In this document: piece by piece, positions 3,455 through 15,579 of the stretch
Position numbering within the stretch: the stretch's first letter is position 1
Layout of the letters: each line of letters opens with the position of its first letter
Assembly (NCBI RefSeq): GCF_900104515.1
Contig: NZ_FNJL01000012.1
Span: forward strand, 62,001 to 126,000
Direction of reading: 5' to 3'
DNA from: Paracidovorax cattleyae
GTDB taxonomy: Bacteria > Pseudomonadota > Gammaproteobacteria > Burkholderiales > Burkholderiaceae_C
Length of the DNA: 64,000 nucleotides
Made by a program: the position numbers and the translations under genes
The notes under the pieces: model-generated
The model's database searches: none
Told to the model about the DNA's origin: nothing
Seen by the model: only the letters and a program-made list of their open reading frames with translations

Positions 3455-3891
3455 TCAGGAAGCGCCGGGCGCCCAGCGTCCGAGCACCAGCGAGGCGTTC
3501 ACGCCGCCGAAGCCGAATCCGTTGACCAGGGCGTGCTGCAGCGGCATCGGGCGTGCGCTTCCAGCCTCCAGGTCGAGGCCCACGGCGAGCGCATCGGGTT
3601 GCACGAGATTGCGCGTCGCGGGCACCACCTGGTCGCGCAGCGCCAGCGCCGCGAAAATGGCGGCCACCGCCCCGGCAGCGCCCAGCAGGTGACCCGTGGC
3701 GGCCTTGGTCGAGCTGGTCGCGACCGCTCCTCCGGTCCCGAACAGGCTGCGGACCGCGGCCAGTTCCCCGCGATCGCCCACGTAGGTGGAGGTGGCGTGG
3801 GCGTTCAGGTACTGCACCTGTTCCGGCGCCAGCCCCGCCTGTGCCAGGGCCATGGCGCGCCGCGCTCCGTCGCCGTCCTCCGGCCCGGAGG
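3455..3891 (-). pseudogene. Beta-ketoacyl-ACP synthase, C-terminal fragment
   Basis: About 145 C-terminal residues of a FabF-type condensing enzyme. Visible are the two catalytic-histidine regions, NAHATSTYVGDRGE and SSTKAATGHLLGAAG, and the C-terminal NGFGFGGVNASLVLGRW. The N-terminal half with the catalytic cysteine is missing: homology starts at SGPEDGDGARRAM, exactly at the end of the IS3-family element at 3892. The reading frame happens to stay open into the insertion sequence, giving a chimeric frame to 4303 that should not be read as one protein. The fragment should be non-functional. Its original pathway (FAS II or a specialised cluster) cannot be told. Confidence 0.85.
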
Positions 3892-3906
3892 TGAATCGCC
3901 CCGGCT
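3892..3906 (+). repeat. IS3-family left terminal inverted repeat
   Basis: Perfect 15-bp partner of 4352-4366; the imperfect match continues inward through CTAGACACC. Confidence 0.8.
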
Positions 3907-3909
3907 TTT

Positions 3910-4024
3910 CTAGACACCTCTGAGCCGTTGGGAATGTCGTTGCTCGAACTCTACCGGCGATAGCCCAGCTGCTGATGAATGACGGCGCTGGGAGTTGTAG
4001 AACATCTCGATGTAGTTGAAGACA
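3910..4024 (-). pseudogene. IS3-family transposase OrfB, C-terminal remnant
   Basis: The last ~37 codons of OrfB, reading VFNYIEMFYNSQRRHS...SPVEFEQ and ending at TAG 3910-3912. The DDE catalytic core is missing. The remnant is joined directly to the 3' part of orfA, so the internal deletion removed about 250 codons. It cannot encode an active integrase. Confidence 0.8.
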
Positions 4025-4303
4025 CCCGGATTGCTTGGCAAAGTACGCGGCGGCCTTTTTTAGGATGTCGCGCTCCTCGGTCACTCGCTTGAGTTCGGCC
4101 TTCAGCCGCCGCAGCTCTTCTGCTTGGGAAGTCTGCAACTGTCGTTCGGACGCAGGCACTGCATAAGCCTTTATCCACTTGTACAGACTGTGCTGGCTTA
4201 CGCCGATCCGGGCAGACACGTCGGCCACCCGGTGACCTCGCTCCGTGATCTGCTTGACCGCTTCAATCTTGAATTCTTCGGGGTATGGCTGCTTGCTCGT
4301 CAT
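4025..4303 (-). CDS. IS3-family transposase OrfA, 3' end altered
   Basis: About 93 residues of an IS3-family OrfA: helix-turn-helix around RVADVSARIGVSQHSLYKW and a leucine-zipper-like helix (EELRRLKAELKRVTEERDIL) ending KKAAAYFAKQSG. The A6G run at the KKA codons is the type of site used for -1 frameshifting into OrfB, but OrfB is deleted here. Translation instead runs out of frame through the OrfB remnant and into the ketoacyl synthase fragment. OrfA alone might still bind the element's ends. Confidence 0.8.
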
Positions 4304-4351
4304 GGCACCTCCTATTGGGCCTCAGGTTTGAGGCTCGAAGGTGTCTAGTAC

Positions 4352-4366
4352 AGCCGGGGCGATTCA
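4352..4366 (-). repeat. IS3-family right terminal inverted repeat
   Basis: Exact reverse complement of 3892-3906. It borders the IS630 transposase fragment directly. Confidence 0.8.
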
Positions 4367-4962
4367 ATCTGCATCCACCCGAGCGGGCGTTGGTCCTGTG
4401 CGTGGACGAGAAACCCTCCATTGCAGCGCACAGCGACACCGCGCCAGCCGTGCCCATGCGCCCGGGGCAACCGGAGCTCCACACGCACGACTACATCCGC
4501 CACGGAACAACCGACCTCTTCGCGGCGCTCGATGTCAAGGCCGGCACGGTCATCGCAGAAGTTCACCGGCGCCATCGCAGTGTGGAGTTCCGCCACTTCT
4601 TGCAGACCGTAGAGCGAGCGACGCCCGCGCAGTTGGATCTGCACCTTGTGCTCGATAACGCAAGCACGCACAAGAGTCCCATCATCCAGCGCCGGCTGCT
4701 CAGGCACCCGCGCGTGCACCTGCACTTCACGCCCACCTCGGCCTCCTGGATCAATCTGGTCGAGTGCTGGTTTTCCATCCTCACGGCCCGCCAGATCAGG
4801 CGCGGGCGCTTGCGCTCCACCCGAGCGCTGGAGAACGCAATCCGGGCATACGTCGCTATGAACAATGCCGCACCCAAACCATTCGTCTGGATCAAAACAG
4901 CCGACGAGATTCTGCAATCCGTCGCTGAATTCTGCCTGCGGACTTCTGACTCACACCACTAG
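4367..4962 (+). pseudogene. IS630-family transposase, 5'-truncated
   Basis: About 197 C-terminal residues of an IS630/Tc1-type DDE transposase. The three catalytic positions lie in ALVLCVDEKP, LHLVLDNASTHKS and SWINLVECWF. The N-terminal helix-turn-helix half is missing, replaced by the IS3-family end, so no normal start exists. The C-terminus (DEILQSVAEFCLRTSDSHH) looks complete. The opposite truncations of this gene and of the ketoacyl synthase on the other side of the IS3 element fit an IS-mediated deletion. Confidence 0.85.
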
Positions 4963-4985
4963 GTGAAAACATACCTGAATTTGCT

Positions 4986-5207
4986 GTGCTTCGCCTTCAG
5001 GAGGGTTCTGCCTCGGAACTACGAGAGAGGTCCACCGCCCATCTTCATGCCACTATGTGGAAAAAGACTGACGACAGGAAAAACTATATATCGGTCAGCA
5101 CCGTAGATGTTTTTACTTCGAGGCAGATTTTTGAGGCTGAACAGCGGCAGCGAATAGAAGATCTACTGGCATCGATGACTGGACAGCCCCAAAGTATGGC
5201 CGATTGA
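4986..5207 (+). CDS. Hypothetical small protein
   Basis: An open frame of up to 73 codons just after the IS630 remnant; an internal ATG at 5055 would give 50 residues beginning MWKKTDDRKN and ending MTGQPQSMAD. It is charged, with no signal peptide, membrane segment or recognised domain. It could be the tail of a gene truncated by the insertion sequences. Weakly supported. Confidence 0.3.
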   Translation: MLRLQEGSASELRERSTAHLHATMWKKTDDRKNYISVSTVDVFTSRQIFEAEQRQRIEDLLASMTGQPQSMAD

Positions 5208-5240
5208 ACAGGGGCTAGAGATGCCCATAAGCTGGACGTT

Positions 5241-5567
5241 TTACTCTGGACGCATCAATGCAGTTAGCTCTACACTGCCATCACAGTAATACATGGCAAA
5301 CAAGTGTTGTTTTGCGTGTGGCTCAGTCGTAACTATCTGGGCATGCCAAAAAGGCAGATTGTCGGCCTGATTAAAGTTAAGCTTTTCTATTTTGAAGGTG
5401 CGACCAGGATGTTTTTCGCTTAGCTTGGAAAATATTTTTTTTTCGATATCTGAAATATTCGCCTTGGTGCAGTCTGCCCTAGGAGCTTCGTCAGCTCTAC
5501 TGCAACTAGCGCCGAGTAGAGCAAGTGCCAAAACTGTGAAAAATCGTCCGCGCGTGATATTCTGCAT
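5241..5567 (-). CDS. Cmi-like colicin M immunity lipoprotein
   Basis: A 108-residue lipoprotein: hydrophobic signal ending LLGASC (Cys22 as lipid site), then a small periplasmic domain. Serine at +2 predicts outer-membrane sorting. The C-terminal segment AMYYCDGSVEL closely resembles the corresponding part of the E. coli colicin M immunity protein Cmi (recalled as GMYHCEEGYVEY). Two further cysteines, Cys33 and Cys95, could form the single disulfide that Cmi needs. It starts 2 bp after the stop of the colicin M-like gene on the same strand, implying coupled translation. Cmi protects from lipid II cleavage in the periplasm; the same job is inferred here. The lipid anchor differs from the transmembrane anchor of E. 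coli Cmi. Confidence 0.72.
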   Translation of the reverse strand: MQNITRGRFFTVLALALLGASCSRADEAPRADCTKANISDIEKKIFSKLSEKHPGRTFKIEKLNFNQADNLPFWHAQIVTTEPHAKQHLFAMYYCDGSVELTALMRPE

Positions 5568-5569
5568 AG

Positions 5570-6352
5570 TTATCTGCCCGTCAGGTTGGTCGGAAGCTTT
5601 CCGTTAATAATTACTGTAAAATCTTGGCCGCCGATCGAGTTGAACACGTCGACCACGGCATCTGCCCACCACGGTCTTCCAGGACGTCTGTCCATGTTAA
5701 AGATGTCGTCATACGCGCCCGTACTTCCTGTAAAAGTGAATGATCCGTCTTCCATTCGAGTAAAGGATCCTGTCGTCCGAAGACTTATCCCCCCTACCAC
5801 GAGCGCTGATACAGCGTTACCGTCACCGTATGTGCTGTATCCATAAGGGCCCGAGTCGTAATCGTACGTGCCTGGATTAGGGTGCGCTGCTGCAAAACTT
5901 TCAAATGAATTTTCAGTGCCGGCGCCAATTCGAGACGCTGTAACATTTATTGCAAGACTCTCAATGTCGATGGAGACGGGGGAACCATTGCCCCAAAGCC
6001 AGTGACCGGTGACTTTTGGAATGCTCCATATTGTTCCGTCAAGCGGATAAGGGGATGGAGTATATGGAGTGTTGGGTGGAACAACTTGATATGCTTCAAT
6101 GGGATTTTTAGGCCACCCAGCAGCGCTATAGTCGTAAATTGCGCAAGCATGAAGCAGCATATTAACGACATCTGTCGGGCTGGCATGCGACATTTTCCGG
6201 TCCATGTCCCAAAAGGCATCTTCTGAAAACATGTACGATAGTGCGAATGCAAATTCCTGGCCTGGAAGGCCAATAGTATTAAAGCACGCATTCCAGTTAG
6301 TGAACTCTCCCTCGTAAGCGCCTGTGACCGTAATTTCTCCGAGTGTTGTCAT
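5570..6352 (-). CDS. Colicin M-like bacteriocin, divergent catalytic motif
   Basis: A 260-residue protein without signal peptide. Similarity to colicin M as recalled is clear over the C-terminal half: HWLWGNGSPVSIDIESLAI matches HYLWGNGAERSVNIANIGL, and GGISLRTTGSFTRMEDGSFT matches the strand region before the active site. Colicin M cleaves lipid II in the periplasm with Asp226, Tyr228, Asp229, His235 and Arg236. An ungapped alignment gives Asp216, Phe218, Asn219, Gly225 and Arg226 here, so only two of the five are kept. EITVT at residues 6-10 may be a TonB box, like ETLTV in colicin M. The immunity candidate follows. The toxin may be inactive, altered in chemistry, or use other residues. No LexA box or lysis gene was seen. 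Confidence 0.75.
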   Translation of the reverse strand: MTTLGEITVTGAYEGEFTNWNACFNTIGLPGQEFAFALSYMFSEDAFWDMDRKMSHASPTDVVNMLLHACAIYDYSAAGWPKNPIEAYQVVPPNTPYTPSPYPLDGTIWSIPKVTGHWLWGNGSPVSIDIESLAINVTASRIGAGTENSFESFAAAHPNPGTYDYDSGPYGYSTYGDGNAVSALVVGGISLRTTGSFTRMEDGSFTFTGSTGAYDDIFNMDRRPGRPWWADAVVDVFNSIGGQDFTVIINGKLPTNLTGR

Positions 6353-7177
6353 AAATATAAGGATATCATCCGTCTATGGACTTAGAAAGTGGTTCGGTTG
6401 CGCATCCGCCGAAGCAACACTTTCCCTTAGAAATCCATTCATTAGAAATTTGATTGGTGAATGGACGGTAGGACTATGACCGGAATTTTGTTTGGCGCAG
6501 GTGATTTTTTGTAATATGTCGCAACTATTGATGCTTATGTCTTTGGGATGGTGAGGATTGATAATTTAATCCTATCCGATCACAGGCCTCGATGAAATTC
6601 ACTAGGAACCATCTCGGTAGGCATGATGGCCGACGTGCCGTGCCGCCTTCTCTGTTCAGCATTGAGAAATTGGTCGCAGATGAATTCTGAGCAGGGGTTT
6701 TGGCTCTGTTAGATAGAGCACAGATTCCACGCCTCTAGCCAACAACCTCGTGCGCTTCCGGCTGGATGTAGCGATCCTTCACAAGGGGAAACTTGCTCTG
6801 CTTCTCTATCACGTTCATCCCTGGTTCGCGGTAGAGCAAGGCTTCACGCGCTGCTGCACGAAGTCCTGGGATGGCCCAGCGATAAGGACCGGTTCGAGAT
6901 TGTGAGCATCTATCGACATAGCTTCGGATGCTGCTTCACCTGTACACCTCGAATTGATTGCACTCATCAGATCCGCTGCACATCGGTGCATGGCTCTGCA
7001 ACTGCACACGATCCAATTGTCCAGCTGGGGCGCGTACTGCTCGCGTGTGATTGGCATGGCGGCGGCAATGTGCACCCAGCTGCGGTATGCACTGCCTAAG
7101 TCCCATAGCTCTGGATCCTCAGCCGAACGGCTACTCCAGCTCTTCTGTGTGTCGAAATTCCGTATGATTACTATTTA
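6353..7177. other. Gene-poor stretch with possible degraded genes
   Basis: 825 bp without a confident gene. On the minus strand an 86-codon frame (6815-7075) reads plausibly protein-like (PITREQYAPQLDNWI). A neighbouring minus frame continues with REALLYREPGMNVIEKQSKF to a stop at 6735-6737, as if one gene had been frameshifted. Neither part matches a family I recognise. The region nearest the toxin gene (6353-6480) must hold its promoter, but no clear -35/-10 pair or Shine-Dalgarno was found. Confidence 0.4.
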
Positions 7178-8803
7178 TTGTTTTCATTCCTAAATATCGT
7201 TTTAGATCACACCCTCCTGCTATGCCTGGGGCTGTTCGGCATCGTCCAGATCCGGAGCATCAACTACCACGCCAACGAACTCGGCACCAACTGGCTGCCC
7301 AGCGTCCGGGTGCTCGGTGACGTGCGCGCCGTGTTGAACAACGGCCGGCGGGCCGCGCTGCGCAGCATCCTGGAGGCCACGCCGGAAGGGCGACAGCGCC
7401 AGCTCGCGCTGCAGAAATCGACCATGGACGAGCAATTGCCGAAGGTGGTCTCCAGCTACGAGCAGATCATTTCCTCCACGGAAGAGCGCAGGCTCTACGA
7501 CATCTTCCGCGCACAGCTGGACAACTACCGCATCCTCGAACGCCGCTTCGTGGCGCTGCTGGACGAGGGCGGAGCTTCGACAGCCGCGGTCAATGCCCTG
7601 GCGACCGGAGACTCCGCCAAGCTGTTCGCCGACATGACCGAAACGCTGGCGCAACTGGTGAAGCTGAACGAGGATGGCGGCACGGCCGCTGCCGCCGCCG
7701 CGAGCGCCGGATACGACCGCGCCATCCTGGTCTTCAGCATCCTCATCGCCTTTTCGCTCTTCTGCGGCCTGACACTGGCCGTCGTGGTGACGCGCTCCAT
7801 CACCCAGCCACTGGCCACCGGGGTTTCCGTCGCGTCGGCCGTGGCCCGGGGCGATCTCACGTCCTCGTTCCACATCCAGGGCAGGGACGAACCCGCAGCG
7901 CTTCTGCAGGCCCTGCAGCACATGAACGGCCAGCTCGTGTCCATGGTCGGCCAGGTGCGCGACAGCAGCGAAAGCATCGCCACCGGCGCGGCCGAAATCG
8001 CGATGGGCAATGCGGACCTGAGCCAGCGCACCGAACAGCAGGCCGGCAGCCTGGAGGAAACCGCGGCCTCGATGGAAGAACTGAGCAGCACCGTGAAGAC
8101 CAATTCCGACACCGCCCGGGAAGCCAACCAGCTCGCGGCCCGTGCGACACAGGCGGCGGAACAGGGCGGCACCATCGTAGGGAGCGTGGTGGAGACCATG
8201 CAGGCCATCGCGGCCTCGTCGAACAAGATCGCGGACATCACTGGCGTGATCGACTCCATCGCCTTCCAGACCAACATCCTGGCGCTGAACGCGGCCGTGG
8301 AAGCGGCGCGGGCCGGCGAGCTGGGTCGCGGCTTCGCCGTTGTGGCGAGCGAAGTGCGCACGCTGGCACAGCGCTCCGCCCAGGCCGCCAAGGAGATCAA
8401 GGAGCTCATCACGGACAGCGTGGCGAAGGTGGGCAACGGCAGCCAGCGGGCCGGCGAAGCGGGCCGCAGCATGGACGACATCGTCGCGCAGGTCCGCCAG
8501 GTCGGCACCCTGATCAGCGAGATCGCCAACGCCTCGGCCGAGCAGAGCAGCGGCATCGGCCAGATAGGGGAAGCGGTGAACCATCTGGACCAGGTGACGC
8601 AGCAGAACGCCGCACTGGTGGAGCAAAGCGCCGCTGCAGCCGCCAGCCTGCGGTCGCAATCCGAACAGCTCAACACGCTGGTGGCAGTGTTCAAGCTCCA
8701 GGCCCAGGCAACCCCTGCGGCACCAGAGTGGCGTTCCCAGGGTCCGGCCAGGGTGGCGTCGGCCCTCCTGCACGCATACCACCCGGCACTGGCCGCCGCC
8801 TGA
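7178..8803 (+). CDS. Methyl-accepting chemotaxis protein, disrupted start
   Basis: Inner-membrane chemoreceptor signalling to CheA/CheW. Order: remnant of TM1 (LLLCLGLFGIVQIRSI), a periplasmic four-helix-type ligand domain, TM2 near residues 185-207 (AILVFSILIAFSLFCGLTLA), HAMP, and a cytoplasmic coiled coil with the hairpin tip IAFQTNILALNAAVEAARAG. No C-terminal CheR-binding pentapeptide. The only in-frame start is a TTG at 7178 whose first ~10 codons (FSFLNIVLDH) come from the AT-rich islet. Homologues normally begin with a basic stretch and a full TM1, so the native start was probably replaced by the insertion. It may be poorly expressed or non-functional. Confidence 0.85.
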   Translation: MFSFLNIVLDHTLLLCLGLFGIVQIRSINYHANELGTNWLPSVRVLGDVRAVLNNGRRAALRSILEATPEGRQRQLALQKSTMDEQLPKVVSSYEQIISSTEERRLYDIFRAQLDNYRILERRFVALLDEGGASTAAVNALATGDSAKLFADMTETLAQLVKLNEDGGTAAAAAASAGYDRAILVFSILIAFSLFCGLTLAVVVTRSITQPLATGVSVASAVARGDLTSSFHIQGRDEPAALLQALQHMNGQLVSMVGQVRDSSESIATGAAEIAMGNADLSQRTEQQAGSLEETAASMEELSSTVKTNSDTAREANQLAARATQAAEQGGTIVGSVVETMQAIAASSNKIADITGVIDSIAFQTNILALNAAVEAARAGELGRGFAVVASEVRTLAQRSAQAAKEIKELITDSVAKVGNGSQRAGEAGRSMDDIVAQVRQVGTLISEIANASAEQSSGIGQIGEAVNHLDQVTQQNAALVEQSAAAAASLRSQSEQLNTLVAVFKLQAQATPAAPEWRSQGPARVASALLHAYHPALAAA

Positions 8804-11654: not shown

Positions 11655-11750
11655 GCCGCCGCGCAAGGGCCGCCCCGCCGCGCTGGCGGCGTCCACCTTC
11701 CCGTCGCGCAGCGACGAGAGAAGGGGGAAGCGGCGCAGCCGCTCAGGGGG
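11655..11750 (-). repeat. Dispersed intergenic repeat, copy B
   Basis: On the minus strand this reads a C-run then CTGAGCGGCTGCGCCGCTTC, as in copy A, followed by a GTCGCTGCGCGAC palindrome and GACGCCGCCAGC. It fills most of the 178-bp gap between dppC and dppD, so it would be transcribed as part of the operon mRNA and could form hairpins there. Ends are approximate. Confidence 0.7.
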
Positions 11751-11764
11751 TTGTGCTCCATTTT

Positions 11765-12740: not shown

Positions 12741-14321
12741 TCACTTCGCGAGGCTCATCCACTTGAACGGCATGAAGTTGTCGGCCATCTGCACCAGCGC
12801 CACCTTGCGCGACACGCCCCAGGCCAGGGCCTGCTGGTGCAGCGGTATGTGGCCCACGTCAGCCGCATGGATCTCGAAGGCTTCGCGGATCATCGCGTCG
12901 CGCCGGGCCTTGTCGGTCTCCGACTGCACCTGCTGCGTGAGCTGGTCCACCCTGGGGTTGCAGTAGCCGCCCAGGTTGAACTGCCCGGCGCCCTTGTCGT
13001 CCACGCAGGCCATCAGCGCATTCATCGCGTTGTGCGCGTCGTAGGTGGCAGGCATCCAGCCCAGCATGTAGAAACTGGTATCCCGCCGCAGCACCTTGGG
13101 GAAGTAGGTGCCCTTGGTCTCCGCCTGCAGGTTCACTTTCACGCCGATGCGCGCCAGGTTGGCGGCCACGGCCTGGCAGATGCGCGCATCGTTCACGTAG
13201 CGGTCGTTCGGGCAGTTCATGCCCACCTCGAAGCCGTTCGGATAGCCGGCCTCGGCGAGCAGCCTGCGCGCTGCGTCGGCATCGTAGGGCAGCCGCTTGA
13301 TGTCGGGCTGGAAGCCGTTGACGCCCGGGCCGACCAACAGCGCCGAAGGATTAGATGCGCCGCGCATCACCGTCTTGCGGATGCCGTCGATGTCGATGGC
13401 CTGGTAGAAGGCCTGGCGCACGCGCTTGTCCTTGAACGGGTTTTTGCCCTTCACGCTGGAATACAGCAATTCGTCGCGCTTCTGGTCCATGCCCAGGAAG
13501 ATGGTGCGCAGCTCGGGCCCGGTCACGGCGCGCGTGAGCGGGCTCGTGTTCACGCGCTCGATGTCCTGCACCGGCACGGGCTCCATCACGTCCACCTGGC
13601 CCGAAAGCAGCGCCGCGACGCGCGTGGCGTCGTTGCCGATGGGCGTGAACACCACCTCGGCCACGTTGCCCTCGATCGCCCCCCAGTACTGCGGGTTGCG
13701 CGTGAACACCGTGCGCACGCCGGGCTGGCGCTCGCGCAGGCGGAACGGCCCCGTGCCGTTGGCCCGGAACGACGCCGCGTTCTCCACGCCCTTGCGCCGG
13801 TCCACCGGCTCGACGGCATGGTTCGCCTCGCACCACTTGCGGGACATCATGTACACGAGCGCGAGCACGTCGGGCAGGATCGGGTACGGGGACCTGGTCT
13901 CGATCTCGACCGTGTAGTCGTCCACCTTGCGCACTTCCTTGAAGTCGTTGGTGTACGTCTTCATGTCCGAGCTCCCGGCCTGCGTGCGCGCCAGCGAGAA
14001 CAGCACGTCGTCGGCGGTGAACGGGCTTCCGTCGTGGAAGCGGACGCCCCGCCGCAGCTCGAACCGCCACACTGTGGGCGAAGTCTGCGTCCACCGCGTC
14101 GCCAGTGCCGGCGCCAGGCTCAGGTCCTTGTTGCGGCCCACGAGCGGCTCATAGACATTGCCGGTCACGCTGAGCTGCAGGCTCTCGTTCAGGGAATGCG
14201 GATCCATCGACAGCGCGTCGCCCTGGTTGGCGACCCGGATGGTCTGCGCTCCCGCCATGCAGGCCGCCGCGACCAGGGATGCGCCGATGGCGGCGCGCAA
14301 TGCCGTGCGTGGGAAATTCAT
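12741..14321 (-). CDS. dppA: Peptide ABC transporter substrate-binding protein
   Basis: Periplasmic family 5 solute-binding protein of 526 residues. The signal peptide runs about MNFPRTALRAAIGASLVAAA...AGAQ, and the mature protein begins near TIRVANQGDALSMDPHS. Later blocks typical of DppA-type proteins include DDVLFSLAR and DKRVRQAFYQAIDIDGI. The ATG at 14321 was chosen over the one at 14327 because GAGGG ends about 7 bp before it. It captures the substrate for the DppBCDF complex; the neighbouring M20 amidohydrolase suggests an acylated amino acid or small peptide. Confidence 0.92.
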   Translation of the reverse strand: MNFPRTALRAAIGASLVAAACMAGAQTIRVANQGDALSMDPHSLNESLQLSVTGNVYEPLVGRNKDLSLAPALATRWTQTSPTVWRFELRRGVRFHDGSPFTADDVLFSLARTQAGSSDMKTYTNDFKEVRKVDDYTVEIETRSPYPILPDVLALVYMMSRKWCEANHAVEPVDRRKGVENAASFRANGTGPFRLRERQPGVRTVFTRNPQYWGAIEGNVAEVVFTPIGNDATRVAALLSGQVDVMEPVPVQDIERVNTSPLTRAVTGPELRTIFLGMDQKRDELLYSSVKGKNPFKDKRVRQAFYQAIDIDGIRKTVMRGASNPSALLVGPGVNGFQPDIKRLPYDADAARRLLAEAGYPNGFEVGMNCPNDRYVNDARICQAVAANLARIGVKVNLQAETKGTYFPKVLRRDTSFYMLGWMPATYDAHNAMNALMACVDDKGAGQFNLGGYCNPRVDQLTQQVQSETDKARRDAMIREAFEIHAADVGHIPLHQQALAWGVSRKVALVQMADNFMPFKWMSLAK

Positions 14322-14331
14322 CGTCATACCC

Positions 14332-15579
14332 TCAGACCGCTGCCAGCGGCATCGCCTGCTCGACCAGGCCCGCATGCAGCGCGGCGCCCAGGGGCAGGAT
14401 CTCGTCGTTGAAGTCGTACCGGCCGTTGTGCAGCGCGCTGTGGCCGGGCCCGGTGCCCTGCCCGATGCGCAGGTAGGCGCCCGGCTTGCTCTGCAGCATG
14501 AAGGAGAAATCCTCCGCCCCCATGCTGGGCTCGAGGTCGCGCACCACGTTCTCGGCGCCGACCAGCGACACCGCCACGTCCCCCGCGAACTGCGCGTCGC
14601 TCTCGGTATTGATGGTCGCGGGATAGATGCGCTCGTAGCGCACGGTGGCCGTGGCGCCGAAGCCCAGCGCCACCGCGCCGCACAGGTCCTTGAGGCGCTG
14701 CTCGATCATTTCCTGCACCGCGGGCGAGAACGTGCGCACCGTGCCCACCAGCGTGGCCGTGCCGGGCAGCACGCTGAACGCGCCCAGGTCGCCCGCCTGC
14801 ATCGCGCACAGGCTGATCACCGCGCTGTCGAGCGGCCGCACGTTGCGCGAGACGATGCCCTGCACCGCGGTGATGATGTGGGCGGCCACCAGCACCACGT
14901 CCACCGTCTGGTAGGGGTGGGCGCCATGGCCTCCACGGCCCGTGATCTCGATGGTGATGCGGTCGGCCGAGGCCATCATCGCCCCGGAATTGAGGCCGAT
15001 GGTGCCCGGCCGCATGGCCGGCCAGTTGTGCATGGCATAGACCGACTGCACGGGAAAGCGGTCGAACAGGCCGTCCTCGATCATCACGCGCGCACCGCCG
15101 AAGCCCTCCTCGCCGGGCTGGAAGATGAGCACGGCCGTGCCGTCGAAATGGCGCGTGGCGGCAAGGTAGCGCGCGGCCCCCACCAGCATGGCCGTATGGC
15201 CGTCATGGCCGCAGCCATGCATGAGCCCGGGCTTGCAGGACTTCCAGGTGAACTCGTTCTGCTCCGACATGGGCAGGGCGTCCATGTCGGCCCGCAGGCC
15301 GATCATGCTGCCGCTGGAACGGCTGCGGCCATGGATCACCGCCACGATGCCGGTGCGGCCGATGCCGTCGTGGATCTCGTCCACCCCGCAGACCTTGAGC
15401 GCCTCTTTCACGCGCGAGCCCGTGTACACCTCCTCGAAACCCAGTTCGGGATGGGCATGCAGGTCGCGGCGGAACGTGGTCAGCTCGGGATGGAACTGCG
15501 CGATGTGGGCGAAGGCGCGTCCGCCGGCCCGCAGGCGGGGGGATGCGGACGGTGCCGGCTTGGCTGCTGTGACCGCCAT
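14332..15579 (-). CDS. M20 family amidohydrolase, hippurate hydrolase-like
   Basis: Zinc-dependent amidohydrolase of 415 residues that would remove the acyl group from N-acyl amino acids or cleave small peptides. Metal and catalytic blocks are in place: GLRADMDALPM, GLMHGCGHDGHTAMLVGAA, FQPGEEGFGGARVMI and, near the C-terminus, EPSMGAEDFSFML. The dimerisation domain has GRGGHGAHPYQTVD. No signal peptide, so cytoplasmic. It begins 1 bp after the dppB stop and ends about 10 bp before the binding-protein gene. The peptide transporter probably feeds this enzyme. True substrate unknown. Confidence 0.9.
   Translation of the reverse strand: MAVTAAKPAPSASPRLRAGGRAFAHIAQFHPELTTFRRDLHAHPELGFEEVYTGSRVKEALKVCGVDEIHDGIGRTGIVAVIHGRSRSSGSMIGLRADMDALPMSEQNEFTWKSCKPGLMHGCGHDGHTAMLVGAARYLAATRHFDGTAVLIFQPGEEGFGGARVMIEDGLFDRFPVQSVYAMHNWPAMRPGTIGLNSGAMMASADRITIEITGRGGHGAHPYQTVDVVLVAAHIITAVQGIVSRNVRPLDSAVISLCAMQAGDLGAFSVLPGTATLVGTVRTFSPAVQEMIEQRLKDLCGAVALGFGATATVRYERIYPATINTESDAQFAGDVAVSLVGAENVVRDLEPSMGAEDFSFMLQSKPGAYLRIGQGTGPGHSALHNGRYDFNDEILPLGAALHAGLVEQAMPLAAV

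Follow-up and report, generated by a model that had tools for sequence, protein, structure and literature searches.

A divergent colicin M-type bacteriocin gene and a candidate lipoprotein immunity gene in a low-GC islet of Paracidovorax cattleyae

Colicin M-type toxins share the motif DXYDX5HR, with degeneracy (BurM1 carries DXFKX5R), and are divided into ColM-alpha and ColM-beta (PMC5821083), while the chemical mechanism of colicin M itself is still described as elusive (PMC5821083, PMC8469651). What, then, does a colicin M-like gene do if it retains only the Asp and the Arg among the five known active-site residues? Such a gene lies in the window analysed here, by which we mean the whole stretch of 64,000 nucleotides of P. 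cattleyae contig NZ_FNJL01000012.1, and the initial annotation saw in it either a dead toxin kept with its immunity gene or a sub-family with different chemistry. A toxin keeping only the equivalents of D226 and R236 amounts to a natural experiment on which of the five residues are needed. The features discussed below are the following.

3895..7211, no strand: foreign low-GC islet, delimited by the break points of the relatives' matches and the GC profile
3890..4366, minus: IS3-type remnant (helix-turn-helix part, the rest missing), from PF01527 in ORF 3455-4303
4375..4967, plus: IS630-family transposase remnant, from PF13358 (DDE_3), E 1.9e-20, in ORF 4285-4962
5241..5567, minus: candidate immunity gene for a 108-residue lipoprotein, starting 2 bases after the toxin stop and sharing a motif with PmiB-like proteins
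5570..6352, minus: colicin M-type bacteriocin gene, 260 residues, ATG start and TAA stop, from PF14859, solved relatives and the fold match
5573..6016, minus: predicted ColM catalytic domain, residues 113-260, from the PF14859 profile and the fold match
5651..5662, minus: residues 231-234, with D231 and V234 replacing invariant E241 and T244 (Glu and Thr in 32/32 relatives)
5675..5707, minus: catalytic loop, residues 216-226, from the alignment to relatives
6323..6337, minus: TonB-box-like EITVT, residues 6-10, where other members carry their TonB-box-like stretch

The ColM domain and its catalytic loop

The product belongs, as had been proposed, with the colicin M-like bacteriocins. A profile search with Colicin_M (PF14859) matched residues 113-255 with 47.9 bits (E 1.3e-12), above the curated Pfam cut-off of 27 bits, the toxin ending five residues past the match, and several solved bacteriocins matched it by sequence, namely 4fzl, 4fzm and 4fzn (syringacin M going by the structure titles), colicin M, the pectocins and PaeM. 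The ColM catalytic fold was recovered by a fold match at low model confidence, the mean pLDDT of predicted model 1 being 49 (residues 216-220 below 50); a model 2 of the catalytic half was worse still, at 42. A Serratia plasmid toxin showed 24% identity over 98% of the toxin, mostly carried by the C-terminal half; residues 1-112 had no significant match to the other toxins of the collected set (best E 0.041), and NCBIfam gave zero matches for either the toxin or the 108-residue lipoprotein. Judged by its sequence, the toxin is a far-drifted member of a known family, that of the colicin M domain (PF14859), and not a new kind.

Relatives carrying PF14859 were collected from 30 of the 398 genomes of Pseudomonas (the genus of a Pseudomonas uvaldensis record), from 5 of the 324 genomes of the family of Rahnella rivi, and from viral contigs, one phage record and two out of 453 matching plasmid records. 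We dropped as copies L010-L012 and L016 as well as L056-L059 (resembling L009- or L013-type rows, with equal lengths and near-equal scores), as fragments L006 and L065, as broken or truncated L023, L033 and L040, all three of which show D226, D229, R236, Glu and Thr, and as hybrids L041 and L043, both without D226, R236 and T244; L020, with an upstream stop, and L030, with a short frame, were retained, their catalytic part being open. The final alignment held 32 catalytic domains plus the toxin. Since 24 of the 32 come from Pseudomonas, with no burkhocin among them, the rows are akin and the counts given below are not independent events.

The alignment to E. coli colicin M confirmed the gap-free loop and the motif residues named earlier: D226, Y228, D229, H235 and R236 correspond to D216, F218, N219, G225 and R226, so that two of the five are retained. 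With Phe, Asn and Gly in place of Tyr, Asp and His, the toxin by its predicted residues is outside the classic DxYDx5HR group. D226 and R236 are present in all 32 relatives, position 228 is Phe in six, position 229 carries Asp 31 times and Asn once (L063), and position 235 is His in 21, Phe in three, Tyr in one, Trp in one and deleted in six, His being thus missing or substituted in 11/32. Each of the three motif changes therefore has a precedent, and two of them are common. The survey of homologues that had been suggested for the Phe/Asn/Gly set accordingly found every change singly and the joint set in none of the 32.

Two further replacements, which the initial annotation did not mention, are E241 to D231 and T244 to V234, where every one of the 32 relatives has Glu and Thr. 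L196, likewise invariant across them, is mildly changed to V186, and five invariant glycines (colicin M G141, G197, G205, G219 and G261) are all kept. Elsewhere in the collected set T244 is altered only in the hybrids L041 and L043, which also lack D226 and R236. Without precedent among the 32 are thus E241 to D231, T244 to V234, L196 to V186 and the full set in one protein; what appears unusual about the toxin is the combination of changes together with the loss of the further invariants E241 and T244.

Some of the relatives deserve a remark of their own. L063, from a genome of Rahnella's family (G1674), has an otherwise canonical motif (DxYNx5HR) and is a second natural D229N. In the Pseudomonas loci L029, L031, L036, L037 and L040 the His position is missing (DxF/YDx5R) and hydrophobic ORFs that by eye look membrane-type come next; since these five precede ORFs that are not of the PmiB type, loss of the His is not bound to one immunity type.

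In both trees the toxin formed the longest end branch (1.54 with 31 rows; 1.26 changes per column with 33 rows, built without the motif columns), had no well-supported position and reached a best identity of 30% to any tree row. Grouping it with the six His-less rows gave an AU p of 0.262 in the 31-row tree, and grouping it with L039 and L042 gave 0.276 in the 33-row tree without motif columns, values at which neither grouping is rejected or demonstrated; no burkhocin was in either tree. ColM-beta members, as described in PMC4661593, retain Asp and Arg, lack the His and commonly carry Phe at 228; the toxin agrees with this, but its loop is as long as that of colicin M. Single-protein scans of genome contigs and viral contigs, whose reach is close relatives, returned no close homologue; genome searches found nothing beyond the toxin's own copy in 60 relatives, 17 genomes of the genus and, with profile A1, 399 of the order; and two alignment scans, with 3 and 5 loci, yielded none but distant relatives. 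Among 399 genomes searched within the bacterial family, PF14859 turned up in two, the own copy and G422 (below the Pfam cut-off), and a class sample of 369 genomes yielded one, again the own copy. The G422 locus (L006, 1462-1770, minus strand) is a ColM-like C-terminal fragment that scores 24.9 bits, under the cut-off. Its loop has two extra residues, and from the Arg on it reads RPFW where the toxin has RPWW; its frame continues from an apparent transposase-like ORF.

Going by titles and the openings of abstracts, none of the papers listed for colicin M in Acidovorax or Comamonadaceae describes this gene; the supplement of PMC5821083 may contain a named Acidovorax ColM, as the one mention of Acidovorax counted for that paper lies outside its main text. 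ColM-like effectors of type VI secretion are placed under DUF3289 (PMC11148199).

Immunity candidate, uptake signals and the foreign islet

The immunity gene presumed by the initial annotation, which gave no position for it, has a candidate in the lipoprotein gene at 5241-5567, on the same strand and 2 bases downstream of the toxin. Its product has by eye a lipobox (LGAS-C22) and two further cysteines, C33 and C95, and shares its cysteines and a CDGxxE motif with PmiB-like proteins. The PmiB plan described in PMC5277000 is that of a downstream, same-strand lipoprotein of about 100 residues with two cysteines, and the Pseudomonas toxins L039 and L042, labelled PmiB-type from what follows them, are succeeded by lipoproteins of 97 and 100 residues. 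The end motif there is ALLSCDGxLE or ALLSCDGxLEI, against AMYYCDGSVE in the 108-residue protein. Compared with the PmiB-like pair, the latter gave a weak hhalign probability of 24%, with an E of 8e-4 for one comparison, and the profile score of its mature part against the two proteins was 21.6, where the maximum of 100 shuffles was 17.5; against a Cmi pair the score of 21.0 equalled that of the best shuffle. Searched alone, the lipoprotein found nothing credible in the PDB and one match on plasmids at E 0.1. A PDB profile match of A4 to Cmi was discarded as circular, A4 itself containing a Cmi.

The residue after the lipid-bearing Cys is Ser, which by the E. coli +2 rule would mean the outer membrane. 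Such a placement would be odd for the candidate immunity protein.

A wider set of six known or candidate immunity proteins, those at L007 (3929-4318), L008 (2982-3335), L011 (1669-2010), L039, L042 and 5241-5567, has in common a Cys early in the mature part and also a C-terminal (A/G)xxxC-x(4-5)-E. It is a hint that a C-terminal motif runs through Cmi, the PmiB-like proteins and related immunity proteins, for which a meaningful alignment has been described as impossible.

At the other end of the toxin, the TonB-box-like EITVT that had been pointed out near the N-terminus gains from its position, which is shared with relatives carrying LPPIxVTA, NITVTAP or ETLTV at that place, and it is a plausible TonB box. 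The start, MTTLGEITVTG, shows by eye no signal peptide, so release would be by lysis; no lysis gene was seen among the islet ORFs. Expression signals were likewise sought: no sigma-70-like promoter and no terminator were found at the toxin locus (shuffles average 3.1 and 2.0, respectively), no clear ribosome-binding site was found by eye for the pair, and no LexA-like CTGN10CAG site occurs in 5201-6900.

The setting matches the earlier description of an AT-rich islet beside IS remnants. GC falls to 0.42-0.51 between 4950 and 6750, against about 0.68 on either side, and the third-position GC of the toxin gene is 0.46 compared with 0.93 in a nearby transporter gene (12741-14375). Window matches to the relatives G013 and G008 end at 3894 and restart at 7212, with 1,810 other bases between, and the islet is absent from all four relatives compared (G013, G008, G009 and G015). 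One edge of the islet falls within a ketoacyl-synthase gene, the other at the 5' end of a gene for a chemotaxis receptor, and IS3- and IS630-type remnants occupy the islet's left part, the former matching in two pieces DNA annotated as IS3 (H64, H68, H71 and H72) and as IS30 (H51, the best match), the latter matching IS630 elements at no more than 69% DNA identity. These data support the bacteriocin-immunity pair being foreign, in a low-GC islet.

Both flanking genes look interrupted: 3455-3894 is the C-terminal part of a ketoacyl synthase reading into the IS3-type helix-turn-helix, and in the gene for a methyl-accepting chemotaxis protein at 7212-8803 the similarity to relatives begins no earlier than 7212. 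Further off, a GC-rich intergenic repeat at 1540-1690 has at least 42 matches in its own genome (40 of 176 candidates scored), and cross-matches with relatives place a related stretch at 11683-11754.

Active toxin, decayed toxin or another activity

Published mutants and natural variants point in two directions. In colicin M, Ala at Y228, D229 or H235 singly leaves less than 2% activity and no killing (PMC8469651), and D226N is not toxic in the periplasm (PMC5187517). Burkhocins strictly conserve the equivalents of D226 and R236, mostly have Phe at position 228 and Asp at 229, and lack the His; BurM1 and BurM2 nevertheless kill, BurM1 about 26% of a 44-strain panel, and Asp297Ala abolishes killing by BurM2 (PMC4661593). 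Lipid II cleavage by burkhocins is described in PMC8469651 as untried. Pectocin M1 D222A, although catalytically dead, still caused E. coli to lyse when present in the periplasm, and no product of lipid II was detected (PMC5187517); the ColM module of PmnH/PmdH-type hybrids is thought inactive (PMC8469651, PMC5821083). Because burkhocins kill and dead pectocin M1 lyses, an altered motif alone need not mean that a toxin is dead, and a toxic protein need not be catalytic. The initial choice between a dead toxin and different chemistry was thus too stark, toxins with similar changes being able to kill and each change occurring alone elsewhere; both of its branches are weighed below.

Domain and motif, the order of the genes, the plan of the lipoprotein and the islet are established for the pair, and the fold was recovered at low model confidence; beyond this we lean towards an active, lipid II-directed ColM toxin of a foreign bacteriocin-immunity pair. 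In favour are the domain and fold, D216 and R226, the invariant glycines, the intact frames, the closely coupled immunity gene and the burkhocin precedents. Lysis would release the signal-peptide-less toxin; the TonB box and a receptor-binding part, going by position and family, would carry it through a competitor's TonB-dependent outer-membrane transporter; and the C-terminal ColM domain would attack periplasmic lipid II by way of D216 and R226, kept in every compared single-domain relative. This lineage would be able to do without the classic Tyr, Asp and His, just as the burkhocins partly can, and the producer would be shielded by the periplasmic lipoprotein encoded just downstream.

Five changed functional positions speak against an active toxin, given that a single Ala at any of three of them inactivates colicin M, as do the alteration of T244, otherwise confined to presumably inactive hybrids, the lack of a recognisable promoter and of a clear ribosome-binding site, the weak immunity match (24%, and against the Cmi pair a score that only ties with the best shuffle) and the low model confidence at 216-220. 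A decayed catalytic site, with the pair persisting through a host-protecting immunity gene or the loss being recent, would account for the changes at three of the five classic residues and at E241 and T244, for a position among broken IS copies between two apparently interrupted genes, and for the longest end branch in both trees. We nonetheless regard it as fairly unlikely: a branch of that length is hard to reconcile with long neutral drift, both frames are intact (in simulations of substitutions only, both stayed open in 4% of 2,000 at 0.1 substitutions per site), and the five glycines and D216/R226 are retained.

A toxin could also stop peptidoglycan polymerisation by binding lipid II without cleaving it; that the scaffold glycines are kept while the polar residues of the site changed would fit this, and so would the lysis caused by dead pectocin M1 D222A. 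A pure binder should not need the retained D216 and R226, however, and the matching colicin M D226N is non-toxic, which makes this reading rather improbable. We think it very unlikely that the pocket was remade (F218, N219, D231, V234, W228, W229) for a different substrate or bond, such as another polyprenyl-phosphate or a phospholipid head group. The unusual residue set and the lack of a close homologue within reach of the searches would agree with this; against it, positive evidence is missing and the downstream lipoprotein weakly resembles those paired with ColM toxins.

Going one step further than an active toxin, the gene might stand for a deep, separate ColM lineage in which Asp and Arg suffice as a minimal pair for the attack on lipid II, the known site's Tyr, Asp, His, Glu and Thr all having been replaced. 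We put this forward tentatively and hold it to be on the doubtful side; if true, it would separate the residues with a genuine chemical role in the colicin M mechanism from those without one. The toxin may also add a ColM bacteriocin outside Burkholderia among the betaproteobacteria.

Comparison with known systems

Compared by published descriptions, burkhocins M1 and M2 resemble the toxin in lying in a low-GC patch, in keeping Asp and Arg without the His, in having mostly Phe at Tyr228 and, in BurM1, a changed residue 229 (Lys), and their BmiB group represents a two-cysteine periplasmic immunity type, which the toxin's candidate partner resembles in plan and cysteines. They differ in size (379 residues for BurM1 and 372 for BurM2 against 260), in a C-terminal extension of 26-36 residues that the toxin lacks, in a signal peptide predicted for 14 of 16 burkhocins and by eye absent here, and in a loop one residue shorter (DKFDADSSNR in BurM2), whereas the toxin's loop is as long as that of colicin M and has Gly where the His would be.

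Colicin M itself shares the N-terminal TonB box, the ColM domain and an adjacent, periplasm-facing immunity protein with two cysteines, whose C-terminal motif is similar (GMYHCEEGYVE in Cmi, AMYYCDGSVE in the lipoprotein). Unlike colicin M, the toxin is changed at three of five motif residues and at E241 and T244, and while cmi lies on the opposite strand and Cmi is membrane-anchored, the candidate immunity gene here shares the strand of the toxin gene and codes for a lipoprotein.

The hybrids PmnH and PmdH (L043 is taken as PmnH by its published motif, and L041 has nearly that of PmdH, with Val for Ile) also have a degenerate ColM motif with T244 changed, and Asn at 229 in L041, but they lose D226 and R236, are much longer (466 and 677 codons) and carry a second toxin part, whereas in the toxin both residues are retained and a second domain is absent. 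The Pseudomonas ColM-beta toxins with PmiB (PMC5277000), here L039 and L042 as labelled above, are likewise followed on the same strand by a two-cysteine lipoprotein of about 100 residues; their motif keeps D229 with one loop residue fewer, whereas the toxin has N219 in a full-length loop.
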